Positions 7,677 to 27,369 of a stretch of 27,369 bases of DNA are shown here, in pieces. Origin of the DNA: a virus. The translations under genes were made by a program, and so were the position numbers. The stretch lies in the IMG/VR virus record IMGVR_UViG_3300031517_000002, positions 1 to 27,369 of that record, one strand, 5' to 3'. A model generated the notes under the pieces. It made no database searches and had not been told where the DNA came from. It saw only the letters and a list, made by a program, of their open reading frames with translations. Each line of letters opens with the position of its first letter. Position 1 is the stretch's first letter.

Positions 7677-7704
7677 TTGACAAGCAGATGCGGGCGCATA
7701 CAAT
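7677..7704 (+). promoter_or_regulatory. Near-consensus sigma70 promoter of the rightward operon
   Basis: TTGACA (7677-7682, perfect -35), a 16-bp spacer and TACAAT (7699-7704). It is followed by a palindromic operator at the start point and by AAAGGAGG before ATG 7738. It is the strongest promoter seen in the window and probably drives the early operon 7738-12683. Confidence 0.85.
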
Positions 7705-10504: not shown

Positions 10505-11347
10505 ATGTTTGCAAGCTGGTACACCGCCCGACCATCAGACCGCCTTGTGGCACGTCTGCTGACTGAGCGAACAGATGATGGCGTGCGCGCGTGCATCATC
10601 ACAGGCGCGCCCGGCGTCGGCAAAACGTCGTTTGCCCGTGCCCTCGCTGAGGGCATGAGTGGGCGACTCGTCGAGTACTATGCCCACCACTGGAGCAACG
10701 ACGAGGATTTATTCGTTGCTGTGGATCCGGCGCGCGTTGCCGCGATTGCCGGCGGCCACGACATGCCGCTGGCCAAGACATACCGGCGCGGTGCGCTGCT
10801 GCGTGCTACGCTGTTGTCGCGGCGCATGCCGGTTGTCCTGCTCCTCGACGAGTGGGACAAGTCGCCAGAGCATTGCGACGCGCTGCTGCTGGAGTTCTTG
10901 CAGTCCGGCACGGTGCACGGTCGTCACGGCGAGCGCTGGCGCGCGAGCACGCGACAACTCACCGTGATCATCACCAGCAACGGCCTGCGCGAGTTGATCG
11001 AGCCGCTCCAGCGGCGGTGCTTCAGGTATGAGATGCCGTACCTGTCGCCGGAGATCGAGTCTGATGTGTTGCGCAAGACCACTGGTGCGCCCGTCGGCGC
11101 GCTCAGGCTAGTGGTCAAGGCCATGAACCTGATTCGCGCGAATGGTCGCTCGTCCCCGTCTTTACAGGAAGGCGCGATGCTGCTGCGGGGGATGGCGCTG
11201 GCGTCCAATGTGGACGATGTACGCCTGCTCGTCCGTGGGTACTTGGTGAAGGACTCTCAAGACGAGGGCGCGCTGAAGTCGCTGGGTGATGTTGCAGTCT
11301 CGCTCTGGGGAGAGTGGAAGAGAGGAAATGGGAAAGAAGCTCATTAG
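10505..11347 (+). CDS. MoxR/CobS-type AAA+ ATPase
   Basis: A 280-aa protein has Walker A GAPGVGKT (34-41), Walker B LLLDEWD (112-118), sensor 1 TSN (157-159) and a double arginine RR (170-171) in arginine-finger position, then a helical lid. The insertion pattern and its pairing with a VWA-domain gene fit the MoxR/CbbQ/NorQ/CobS branch of AAA+ ATPases. These work as rings with a VWA partner to remodel proteins or insert metal ions. Gene order AAA+ then VWA, with the next gene overlapping by 20 nt, supports a complex. The substrate in a phage is unknown. Start ATG 10505 is two bases after the preceding stop. Confidence 0.85.
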   Translation: MFASWYTARPSDRLVARLLTERTDDGVRACIITGAPGVGKTSFARALAEGMSGRLVEYYAHHWSNDEDLFVAVDPARVAAIAGGHDMPLAKTYRRGALLRATLLSRRMPVVLLLDEWDKSPEHCDALLLEFLQSGTVHGRHGERWRASTRQLTVIITSNGLRELIEPLQRRCFRYEMPYLSPEIESDVLRKTTGAPVGALRLVVKAMNLIRANGRSSPSLQEGAMLLRGMALASNVDDVRLLVRGYLVKDSQDEGALKSLGDVAVSLWGEWKRGNGKEAH

Positions 11348-12683
11348 ACTCAATCCCAAGCGTCGAGATTACGTCGTGAAGACGGCGTGGGCGCGTATGA
11401 GCGGGAGTCTCGTCGAGATTGTAGACGGTCATAAGGTGGAGATATACGTCTCAATTCTCGGCGAGCTATGGGCTGATGTCGACGTAGTTACTCCTGCGGT
11501 TCAAAGTTTTTTGTCGCGCATTCCTCTGGCCTATGCTGATGACGAGTCCTCGTCGTCGGCAAAGGCGAGCGCGGATGCGCTCGAGTCGAGGGAGTCGGCT
11601 CCTCTAGCTGATGCTAGTGAGGATGCTTACCCTTCGGCTGTTGGGGACGGCGAACCCCAAGCAGAATCACCCTGTGATTCTGCTGGCGATCTCAGTGAGT
11701 CACCTGAAGTTCAGGGCGAGGATTTGTCCTCGAACGGCATAAGCCGGGACTCTGAGAACGCCGAACAACATCCGGGTAGCGCCTCACCGTCGGGCGACGA
11801 CGATGGCGAGGAGAGCGTGCCGGATGGCCAAGCTGAGCATGCAGCTTCTGCCGCGGCGTCGCACGCGACAGAGGAAGCCACCAGCGGGGCGCTGGACAGC
11901 GATGCTGTCCAGCAACGGTGCGAATCCGTTCCGGCCGCTGGCGACGGCGCGCCGGCGTCGGAAAACATCCGGCGCTCCTTCCTATCGAAGGCCGACCTGT
12001 CGCATACCCCCCACCCGTCTTTCGGAGGCGTCTTTGCGTGGGTTTCCGAAGTCCAGCTTGACCGCGCGATGATCGCTCGCGCGCGCCGCGCGTTTCGGCG
12101 CATGCTCCTGGACGGCGAGACGAAGCCGGGGCCGCGATGGAACGCACGCGCCGTCTCAACCAAGACGGCAGGCTACCTGCGGTCGTGGACAGTGGATGAC
12201 CGCAGGCTGGAGTCGGGCCGACCGGCCCTGCTCATATTGCCTGACGTGTCAGGCAGCATGGGCAGACTCGCTCGCAACGTCGTTGCCTTTGCCGTCGCTT
12301 GCTACGGCACGCGCAGCGACGGCGACGTGGTGTGCATTACGCACTCTGATGGTATTCCTTTTGAGTACATCCCTGACAAACTATCAGGCATGGACTACGA
12401 GGAGATTATAAGGAAGCACAACGTGCGCGCGATAGTGATTGCAGCAGACCACGACGGAGAACTTACGTTCCTGCGCCTTGCTCATCTTGTGCCGAAGGTC
12501 TACTGGTTGTCTCCATTCGGCTGCAACCAGATGGAGCGCCCGCGCATCCGCGACACGGCAAAGGTACTGGCAGACTGGCCAGACGATATTCGACAGCGAG
12601 TAATGTACGCTGATGGATGCGGTGACCCAGAGAGCTGCTTGACAGCGATGGAGATGATGCTACAATTGGGAGTGCGTCACTAA
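11328..12683 (+). CDS. VWA-domain protein with acidic linker (CobT/CoxE-like partner of the ATPase)
   Basis: The 451-aa protein (ATG 11328, AGAGAGG just upstream) has three parts: a short N-terminal domain (1-70), a long S/D/E/A-rich disordered acidic linker (about 72-218), and a C-terminal VWA domain with MIDAS motif DVSGS at 306-310. Acidic linkers before a VWA domain are a mark of CobT/ChlD-type chelatase subunits and related MoxR partners. It should dock on the ATPase encoded just upstream and bind a metal through the MIDAS site. The last His codon and the stop are part of a hammerhead ribozyme (12671-12762), so self-cleavage would remove the stop codon from the message. Confidence 0.85.
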   Translation: MGKKLIRLNPKRRDYVVKTAWARMSGSLVEIVDGHKVEIYVSILGELWADVDVVTPAVQSFLSRIPLAYADDESSSSAKASADALESRESAPLADASEDAYPSAVGDGEPQAESPCDSAGDLSESPEVQGEDLSSNGISRDSENAEQHPGSASPSGDDDGEESVPDGQAEHAASAAASHATEEATSGALDSDAVQQRCESVPAAGDGAPASENIRRSFLSKADLSHTPHPSFGGVFAWVSEVQLDRAMIARARRAFRRMLLDGETKPGPRWNARAVSTKTAGYLRSWTVDDRRLESGRPALLILPDVSGSMGRLARNVVAFAVACYGTRSDGDVVCITHSDGIPFEYIPDKLSGMDYEEIIRKHNVRAIVIAADHDGELTFLRLAHLVPKVYWLSPFGCNQMERPRIRDTAKVLADWPDDIRQRVMYADGCGDPESCLTAMEMMLQLGVRH

Positions 12684-12762
12684 GACGACCTGTTGCTTTC
12701 AAAAGTCAGATAGACTATCAGGTCTACTTAGTCTGATGAGGGGTGAAACCCCGAAACGCACT
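12671..12762 (+). ncRNA. Type III hammerhead ribozyme
   Basis: All parts of the fold can be placed. Stem III: AGTGCGT (12671-12677) pairs perfectly with ACGCACT (12756-12762). The cleavage base is C12678 in a GTC triplet. Stem I: ACTAAG (12679-12684) pairs with CTTAGT (12727-12732) and, after a 2x2 internal loop, GACCTG (12687-12692) with CAGGTC (12719-12724). The core is CTGATGA (12733-12739). Stem II: GGGGT (12740-12744) and ACCCC (12748-12752). The second core strand is GAA (12753-12755). All invariant core bases and the G-C closing pair of stem II are present. Predicted cut: between 12678 and 12679, inside the last codon of the VWA gene. Confidence 0.92.
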
Positions 12763-12825
12763 TTATCCCGCTTGAGGGTCTAAGAGAACAAACGACTATC
12801 CCGCTTGAGGGATTCTGAGAAGTCA
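12754..12825 (+). repeat. Two tandem hairpin repeats with core TATCCCGCTTGAGGG
   Basis: The 15-base core occurs exactly at 12764-12778 and 12797-12811; each unit begins AAACG (12754, 12790), giving a 36-nt unit. In each, CCC pairs with GGG (in the second copy ATCCC pairs with GGGAT) around GCTTGA. The end region (TCTAAGAGAA or TCTGAGAAG) is also similar. The first unit shares bases with stem III of the ribozyme. The form, a short stem with an A/G-rich 3' end, recalls CRISPR repeats, but no room is left for spacers. Confidence 0.7.
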
Positions 12826-12826
12826 A

Positions 12827-12933
12827 GTTCCACGCTTCTGTAAGCGTGGCCCCTTTGAAGCGTTTGCGCCAACGGCACGCTCGAGCTAGACACGATGTTT
12901 CCACGCTCACAAAAGCGTGGCCCCATTGAAAAG
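12827..12933 (+). CRISPR. CRISPR-like repeat pair with one 35-nt spacer (mini-array or repeat mimics), no cas genes
   Basis: Repeat A (12827-12861) and repeat B (12897-12933) share CCACGCT, then five unlike loop bases, then AAGCGTGGCCCC and TTGAA, so 24 of 30 aligned core positions are equal. Each forms a stem CCACGCT/AGCGTGG. Length (35-37 nt), internal stem, TTGAA(A/G) 3' end and the 35-nt interval (12862-12896) are all typical of CRISPR arrays. The differing loop is not typical and points to conserved structure. It may be a viral mini-array, solitary repeat units acting as crRNA decoys, or an unrelated structured RNA. Confidence 0.55.
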
Positions 12934-12936
12934 ACG

Positions 12937-12976
12937 CGCGCCCGGTACTGCTACAGTACCGGGCGCGTTTTGTTTT
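12937..12976 (+). terminator. Intrinsic terminator ending the rightward operon
   Basis: A perfect 14-bp stem (12937-12950 with 12954-12967) with a 3-nt loop CTA is followed by TTTTGTTTT. It ends the rightward transcript and the ncRNA region. On the minus strand the stem is followed by CGTCTTTTC, so it probably also stops the leftward late operon, whose last gene ends at 12990. Confidence 0.93.
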
Positions 12977-12989
12977 GCTAGCAGCCTCG

Positions 12990-13463
12990 CTATCGCCTAC
13001 CCAGATAGACAAGACGAACGTCCACCGTCTGCAACGTGAAGCTCCCTGTACCGCCGGAGTTCACAACGTATATCTGGTAGCTCGCGCCGCCAGATGGAAC
13101 ATTCACCAACCGCGCGCCGCCAGTGGCAAATGAAAAACCTGCGTGCAGGTAGTACGGTTGCACGGCCAACCCCCACTCGTGCAACGGCGATGCCTGCCGC
13201 ATCAGCACGCTGAGATTCCCTACGCCGGTCGCGTTGCAGACAACATTGACCAGGAAGCCGATAACGCCCGCCTGCTTGATTCGCAGTGCCTGCGCCGCCG
13301 AAACATACTCAAAGATGTTGCCCGACACTTCGCTCAGCCCTGCAATCGCCAGCGTGACGTTGCTGTTCGATGGCACGTTAACCGAGCCAAACCAAGACAC
13401 CCTGGCCGTAGCAGGCGCGAAGCTATCTCCACGCTCCAAAAGGTCTATGCGTTCGCTGTTCAT
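12990..13463 (-). CDS. Putative tail appendage protein (last late gene)
   Basis: A 157-aa protein, nearly all beta-strand by pattern, rich in V, S, G and N, with repeated short strands (NVTLAIAGLS, FLVNVVCNAT, GSFTLQTVDVRLVYL). No family was recognised. Location after the tail hub gene at the end of the structural block and the beta-sandwich character suggest a small baseplate or fibre component, possibly host-binding. Start ATG 13463 overlaps the preceding stop by four bases. It ends 13 bases before the shared terminator. Confidence 0.6.
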   Translation of the reverse strand: MNSERIDLLERGDSFAPATARVSWFGSVNVPSNSNVTLAIAGLSEVSGNIFEYVSAAQALRIKQAGVIGFLVNVVCNATGVGNLSVLMRQASPLHEWGLAVQPYYLHAGFSFATGGARLVNVPSGGASYQIYVVNSGGTGSFTLQTVDVRLVYLGRR

Positions 13464-26821: not shown

Positions 26822-27369
26822 TCACCTCACTTTAAGTTTCGCGCGCCAGGCTTTGCGCGCCAAAGCAACCGTCTCACAGAATACTACACGGCTAAAGTAC
26901 GCACTCGCGCGCTCGCGCCAGTATGCGTCCCCGCCGTAACAGATGACTTTTTGGGGACTCAGCCTTTCTGCAATCAATCTCAGCGCAGATTCTCTGCGCT
27001 GTATGTCTTCCTTGTCAGCGATACGCGACTGTAGCTGTATCGCAACGCAGCGCGGTCGGTCTGGAATGCCAAGAAGGTTGAACTCAAACGAGCCTTCATC
27101 TACCCAGTCAATATCCGGCACAACGAGTTGGCCAAGCGATTGCAGATACCGACCAACCCACCTTGAGCGGTACACCTGCCACATATGCACTACGACGGGG
27201 TCGCGCGGGCGAAGCGAGAAGTTCGGCGTGATGTACGCAAGGAATCGCTTAGCCAGAATCTTCTCAATGACTTCCGCTGCGTTGTCGTAGACCTCGTTGA
27301 TCACGTCATCATAGGTGTAGAAGCAAAGCACAGAGCGCGTGTAGTCAACACCTCGCTCAGTGGAGTTGC
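26822..27369 (-). CDS. ParB-domain/DUF4417 fusion protein, C-terminal part (continues from position 741)
   Basis: This frame enters from the right edge, where it matches the 1-113 copy, and ends at TGA 26824-26822. It supplies the DUF4417 domain: ITPNFSLRPRDPVVVHMWQV, YRSRWVGRYLQ, VVPDIDW...SFEFNLLGIP and a final VICYGGDAYW block. DUF4417 is of unknown function and occurs in phages and mobile elements. Fused to the ParB domain it makes a protein of about 391 aa. Upstream in the late operon come the holin and spanin-like genes; downstream are the terminase genes. Confidence 0.85.
   Translation of the reverse strand, partial: NSTERGVDYTRSVLCFYTYDDVINEVYDNAAEVIEKILAKRFLAYITPNFSLRPRDPVVVHMWQVYRSRWVGRYLQSLGQLVVPDIDWVDEGSFEFNLLGIPDRPRCVAIQLQSRIADKEDIQRRESALRLIAERLSPQKVICYGGDAYWRERASAYFSRVVFCETVALARKAWRAKLKVR
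27257..27369. repeat. Terminal direct repeat, right copy
   Basis: Copy of bases 1-113 with one silent difference at 27266. See the left copy. The single difference suggests either a sequence variant in the sampled population or a sequencing error. Confidence 0.95.

Follow-up and report, generated by a model that had tools for sequence, protein, structure and literature searches.

A putative type III hammerhead ribozyme in front of a mini-array of type I-G-like CRISPR repeats in a group of related phages

Hammerhead ribozymes are known in bacteria and in phages and prophages (Perreault et al., 2011, PMC3088659), and the role of the phage hammerheads has been an open question since that year. 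Viruses can also carry CRISPR repeats. The mini-CRISPR arrays of archaeal viruses, with one or two spacers, are used against competitors (Medvedeva et al., 2019, PMC6858448), and a leader is not required by a review definition of viral mini-arrays (PMC11656645). In type I-G CRISPR systems, which use a TTN PAM, Csb2 cuts the repeat 4 nt beyond its hairpin, leaving a handle of 8 nt (PMC9638904). Racr loci (Camara-Wilpert et al., 2023, PMC10651486) encode a small phage RNA with its own promoter and a solitary CRISPR-like repeat hairpin; an artificial hammerhead in one Racr variant made processing Cas6-independent (PMC10651486).

Here, we report an analysis of a 27,369-nucleotide stretch of phage DNA (IMG/VR record IMGVR_UViG_3300031517_000002, positions 1 to 27,369; hereafter the window), in which a predicted type III hammerhead precedes a short array of type I-G-like CRISPR repeats. 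The ribozyme shares with the type III hammerheads of Perreault et al. the core, the three stems, the type III topology and the phage setting. There are two differences. The first is in stem I, which has an internal loop and a long closed arm here and is missed by the RF00008 model; the second is in the setting, as this ribozyme appears to head a short RNA with its own promoter, whereas theirs flank genes. The array resembles the mini-arrays of Medvedeva et al. in having one or two spacers, in the lack of phage cas genes (none was detected among the window proteins searched) and in occupying the same site with different spacers in relatives. It differs from them in its type I-G-like repeats, its bacterial phage and the ribozyme in front, and also in that no host-like leader, host-identical repeat or spacer target was found. 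Compared with type I-G arrays, the 36-nt repeat, hairpin, CCCC linker, 8-nt handle and spacer length are alike, but the copies within the array are unequal and the handle is altered. Like Racr, the locus would give a small own-promoter phage RNA with altered-base CRISPR-like repeat hairpins; unlike Racr, it holds spacers of true length between its two or three repeats, and its hammerhead is native rather than artificial. Phage hammerheads, viral mini-arrays and RNA anti-CRISPRs are thus known already, and the combination seems to be new: in a literature search that covered mainly papers outside subscription, we found no earlier report of a natural ribozyme before a CRISPR array.

Fold and conservation of the ribozyme

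The hammerhead spans 94 nt of the plus strand (12670..12763). Its core is formed by CTGATGA (12733-12739) and GAAA (12753-12756), and the cleavage triplet GTC ends at 12678, which places the predicted cut between 12678 and 12679. A preliminary description, made from the letters of the window alone, had claimed a complete type III hammerhead here, and its sequence, coordinates, core strands, triplet and cut position are all correct. It had also described stem I as two-part, as is indeed the case: a helix of 6 bp (12679-12684/12727-12732) is followed by an internal loop, a second helix of 6 bp (12687-12692/12719-12724) and a long apical loop. Stem II (12740-12743/12749-12752) has four G-C pairs and one possible U-A pair. 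One adjustment is needed: stem III, given as a perfect 7-bp helix, actually consists of six Watson-Crick pairs (AGTGCG/CGCACT) with G.U wobbles on either side.

Folded by minimum energy, 12668-12765 adopts the hammerhead itself, its core single-stranded (-34.3 kcal/mol, z -3.6), and none of 200 shuffled sequences folded equally well. In this fold and in the pair counts, stem III is open and stems I and II are closed by loops, which is the type III topology. Even when the limits on the stems were made much looser, a type III descriptor found no match in 16.4 Mb of first-order Markov sequence; applied to 0.8 Mb of fetched DNA, the same descriptor gave type III matches confined to this phage group. 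No second ribozyme, which would have suggested a circular RNA, was found nearby with type I, II and III descriptors.

The preliminary description had proposed an Rfam search as a check and had held that the lack of a hit above threshold would refute the ribozyme. The search gave no usable match at gathering or relaxed thresholds; RF00008 scored 13 bits against a gathering cutoff of 48.5, a cutoff that is a detection threshold and not a structural definition. The RF00008 model is 54 nt long with a short stem I, while the element here has 94 nt, and the miss is probably due to the long stem I. The missing match is weak evidence against a hammerhead and is outweighed by the comparative evidence.

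For this comparison, eight IMG/VR loci were collected by means of a VWA-like protein encoded just upstream (see below). One of them (L008) ends before the ribozyme site and was left out of the count. A hammerhead occupies the same site in six of the seven loci that cover the 3' end of the VWA gene; the exception is L003, a 42-kb contig that includes this end and lacks the ribozyme. The window and the six relatives all have the invariant core CUGANGA...GAAA and an NUH triplet, either GTC or GTA, both of the cleavable kind. Beyond this group, no IMG/VR contig was found with this stem II and core.

When the seven ribozymes were compared, 97.5% of pair cells held standard pairs, and four pairs had changed on both sides. 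The covariation score was matched by one of 500 shuffles and was higher than every slid control; with only seven related sequences, we regard this as supportive rather than final. A second kind of linked change joins the internal loop of stem I (TA or CA) to loop II (TGAAA/TGAAT or TGGTAG) in all seven. L007 keeps the link even though its apical loop resembles that of the other group. A contact between stem I and loop II would be expected to produce such changes, which are consistent with it without proving it.

It might be argued that the element has the fold of a hammerhead without its catalysis, by chance or because it is kept for some other reason, and Rfam matches that all lie below threshold would agree with this. 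Against it stand the core, intact in seven of seven phages, the GTC or GTA triplets, the covarying stems and loops, and the lack of chance matches in 16.4 Mb, and we consider it very improbable. On its fold, conservation and covariation, we take the type III hammerhead to be real, with self-cleavage as the predicted activity.

Promoter, transcript and neighbouring genes

The 5' part of the ribozyme lies within the end of a VWA-like gene (11286..12683, plus strand), an open frame with a DVSGSM motif and homologues of 72-75% identity in related phages. Its protein has no Pfam or PHROGs match, so the name VWA is taken from the DxSxS motif only. An AAA ATPase gene stands before it; the two (10505-12683) resemble MoxR-VWA pairs and form the end of a rightward operon. 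At the end of the window, near the terminase genes, a DUF4417 protein is encoded on the minus strand (26822-27331).

The 3' end of the VWA-like gene also holds a sigma-70-type promoter on the plus strand (12639..12666), TTGACA-16-TACAAT with an extended -10 TG, which has 11 of 12 matches and stops 4 nt upstream of stem III. It is present in all seven ribozyme phages, in several of them with TATAAT; in L003, which has no ribozyme, the -10 box is degraded or lost. The only other match of this kind in the window, at 7677 before the rightward operon, has identical hexamers and spacing. Downstream, an intrinsic terminator with a 15-bp stem and a T-rich tail (12936..12978, plus strand) lies between convergent operons and is conserved in the relatives, although its stem in L005 has another sequence.

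Since only 4 nt separate the promoter from stem III, the ribozyme appears to stand at the start of a short RNA of its own, about 300 nt long (approximately 12,672-12,975). Its start is expected at about 12672-12674, within the 5' strand of stem III, so the ribozyme would trim about 5-7 nt off its own transcript. The preliminary description had the ribozyme end an early operon and start a repeat-rich RNA. This was half right. Repeats do follow downstream, but they are type I-G-like CRISPR repeats around a spacer, which it did not recognize, and a promoter inside the VWA gene appears to serve this RNA separately, which puts the ribozyme at the 5' end of a dedicated transcript.

The ribozyme would cut read-through VWA mRNA as well, at the same bond. 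That read-through RNA is a substrate as well is suggested by the outer pairs of stem III, which lie ahead of the predicted start and likewise vary on both sides. In two cases, the window and L002, cleavage would deprive the VWA mRNA of its stop codon, which is found 3-5 nt past the predicted cut (12678-12683 in the window). The -10 box itself supplies the stop in L004, L005, L006 and L009, ahead of the cut.

These observations bear on a rival explanation, in which the hammerhead serves mRNA processing by separating the VWA message from the RNA further downstream, and the array is carried along without any relation to it. Phage hammerheads have been proposed to split long transcripts (PMC3088659), and the both-side variation of the outer stem III pairs, the stop codon that comes right after the cut in the window and in L002, and the three relatives in which the ribozyme occurs without an array (L004, L005 and L009) would all fit. 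However, the promoter immediately ahead of the ribozyme is strong and conserved and the RNA is closed by a terminator, both of which point to a dedicated transcript, and we judge this explanation to be improbable.

Between the ribozyme and the array, repeat analysis and comparison with the relatives revealed two small hairpins, CCCGCTTGAGGG, 33 nt apart on the plus strand (12767-12778 and 12800-12811; span 12767..12811). Every ribozyme phage has one or two copies of the pattern CCC-GNNNGA-GGG, and elsewhere in these phages there is none except for one match in L222. They may be a binding site for a protein or the remains of a repeat. They were also considered as a host CRISPR leader, a candidate that was rejected because they are unlike host leaders.

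The mini-array and its repeat family

The array, on the plus strand, consists of a 36-nt unit in two copies 71 nt apart, with 81% identity between them. Repeat 1 (12826..12861) has an 8-bp hairpin, CCCC and the handle TTTGAAGC; it is followed by a spacer of 35 nt (12862..12896) and by a degenerate terminal copy (12897..12933), recognized by alignment and fold, with the handle ATTGAAAAG. A minus-strand open frame at 12728-13012 is an artefact, the repeats read backwards, like the open frames that run across host arrays.

There are three repeat copies in L002 and L007, two in the window and L006, and none in L004, L005 and L009. The six spacers (one each in the window and L006, two each in L002 and L007) are all different, that of the window being unlike every relative's, and their lengths of 35-37 nt fall within the 34-42 nt of host spacers. 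Phage and host repeats fold alike, into a hairpin, CCCC and an 8-nt handle. All six spacer-preceding phage repeats end in the handle TTTGAAGC (12854-12861 in the window), whereas about 99% of host repeats, more than 1,100 of them, have ATTGAAGC, a difference of one base. Since the ribozyme persists in three relatives that have no array, its role goes beyond the array and would lie in a benefit to the RNA itself or to the upstream mRNA.

When 84,980 genomes were scanned, the repeat consensus turned up in 91 bacterial and archaeal stretches, in planctomycetes, Nitrospira, Methanothrix, Chloroflexi and others. Most of these are repeated copies at steps of 72-75 nt, many with 10-100 copies. Type I-G-like genes adjoin 41 of the 91 stretches, and beside some of them the type I-G proteins Cas7g, Csb2 and Cas4-Cas1g were identified. 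The exact phage repeat was absent from all the genomes scanned. Next to host CRISPR arrays, no hammerhead was found apart from one weak type I chance match (L094), and the spacers of the 91 stretches gave no match to the window phage above noise. The phage spacers, in turn, had no protospacer in related phages or GenBank phages (six spacers) or, for two of them, in a scan of the whole of IMG/VR. By inspection against host type I-G leaders, no host-like leader precedes the array, and the spacers may thus not have originated through normal adaptation.

Guide or decoy, and the link to a host

A link to possible hosts comes from a single array. A survey of 400 genomes from the Candidatus Roseilinea phylum turned up a Chloroflexota genome (L252) whose array has the repeat GTTTCCACGCCTAACAAGGCGTGGCCCCATTGAAGC (or ending GG), with a cas4-cas1g gene nearby. 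One of its spacers encodes ESELTINTNRH, and a structural gene of the phage family (18637-19587, minus strand in the window) encodes EAELTINTNRH or EAELSINTNRH; this peptide-level match scored 54, while the best of 300 shuffles reached 35 and none did as well. In each of the eight phage records with this site, TTN stands directly before it. Compared as DNA, even the best match differs at 8 of 36 positions, and the spacer therefore came from a relative rather than from these phages. With this spacer directed against the family and the TTN beside its site, Chloroflexota with type I-G systems are plausible hosts of the phage family. A TerL homologue was not found in two Chloroflexota genomes. In the phyla of the Armatimonadetes and Truepera representatives, which were also considered, there were no GCGTGG-stem repeats of this kind.

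We lean slightly towards the following account. Transcription would start from the promoter in the 3' end of the VWA gene and stop at the intrinsic terminator, giving an RNA of about 300 nt. The hammerhead would remove the first few nucleotides to leave a 5'-OH RNA, and would cut the same bond in read-through mRNA of the upstream operon. What remains would be a repeat-spacer-repeat mini-CRISPR array, in which the Csb2 (a Cas5-Cas6 fusion) of a host type I-G system would cut 4 nt past each hairpin to yield a crRNA with an 8-nt handle; this crRNA would then guide the host effector to a competing mobile element, for which the mini-arrays of archaeal viruses offer a precedent (PMC6858448). Sequence and comparison support the ribozyme's fold and conservation, the promoter, the repeat family, the turnover of spacers, the terminator and the Chloroflexota spacer against the family. 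Catalysis, the exact start, processing by Csb2, the actual identity of the host and the use against competitors are steps that we infer from them. Weighing against the account are the six spacers for which no target was found, the lack of a host-like leader, the altered handle of a repeat that no scanned genome has in exact form, and the ribozymes that occur without an array.

The main rival is an RNA anti-CRISPR, in which the repeats, perhaps with the small hairpins, would mimic type I-G repeats and bind Csb2 or form faulty complexes; the spacers would be incidental and the ribozyme would free the decoy. The one-base change in the handle of every spacer-preceding repeat points this way, as do the unequal copies within one phage (81% identity) where host arrays repeat one sequence, the strong dedicated promoter, as in Racr loci (PMC10651486), and the Chloroflexota type I-G array that already targets the phage family. 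A decoy would not, however, account well for the presence of two or three repeats instead of a solitary one, for true-length spacers that vary from phage to phage, or for the repeat-less forms of the RNA, and we consider it rather unlikely.

A reading that spans guide and decoy treats ribozyme and array as one machine, in which the hammerhead would mature the 5' end of a viral RNA that enters or jams the host type I-G CRISPR system. We hold it tentatively, as a possibility somewhat short of probable. If true, it would be the first natural ribozyme-headed CRISPR array, and would suggest that phages use self-cleaving RNA where researchers place artificial ribozymes before guide RNAs. Type I-G-like repeats would join those of virus-borne mini-arrays, and a short RNA for a defined CRISPR subtype, as guide or decoy, makes the function of a phage hammerhead testable.

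Similar CRISPR-like arrays, with no hammerhead, are present in two unrelated phage contigs, L011 (IMGVR_UViG_3300046516_001118, approximately 440-700) and L013 (IMGVR_UViG_3300050821_013618, approximately 2115-2290). In each, one spacer encodes a peptide like that of the phage's own neighbouring gene (KNSRINRTIVIG versus LNSSINRTIVIG and KTKTCVWTAVFR versus KTPLSVWTKIFR, respectively), a likeness that fits a putative targeting of related phages.
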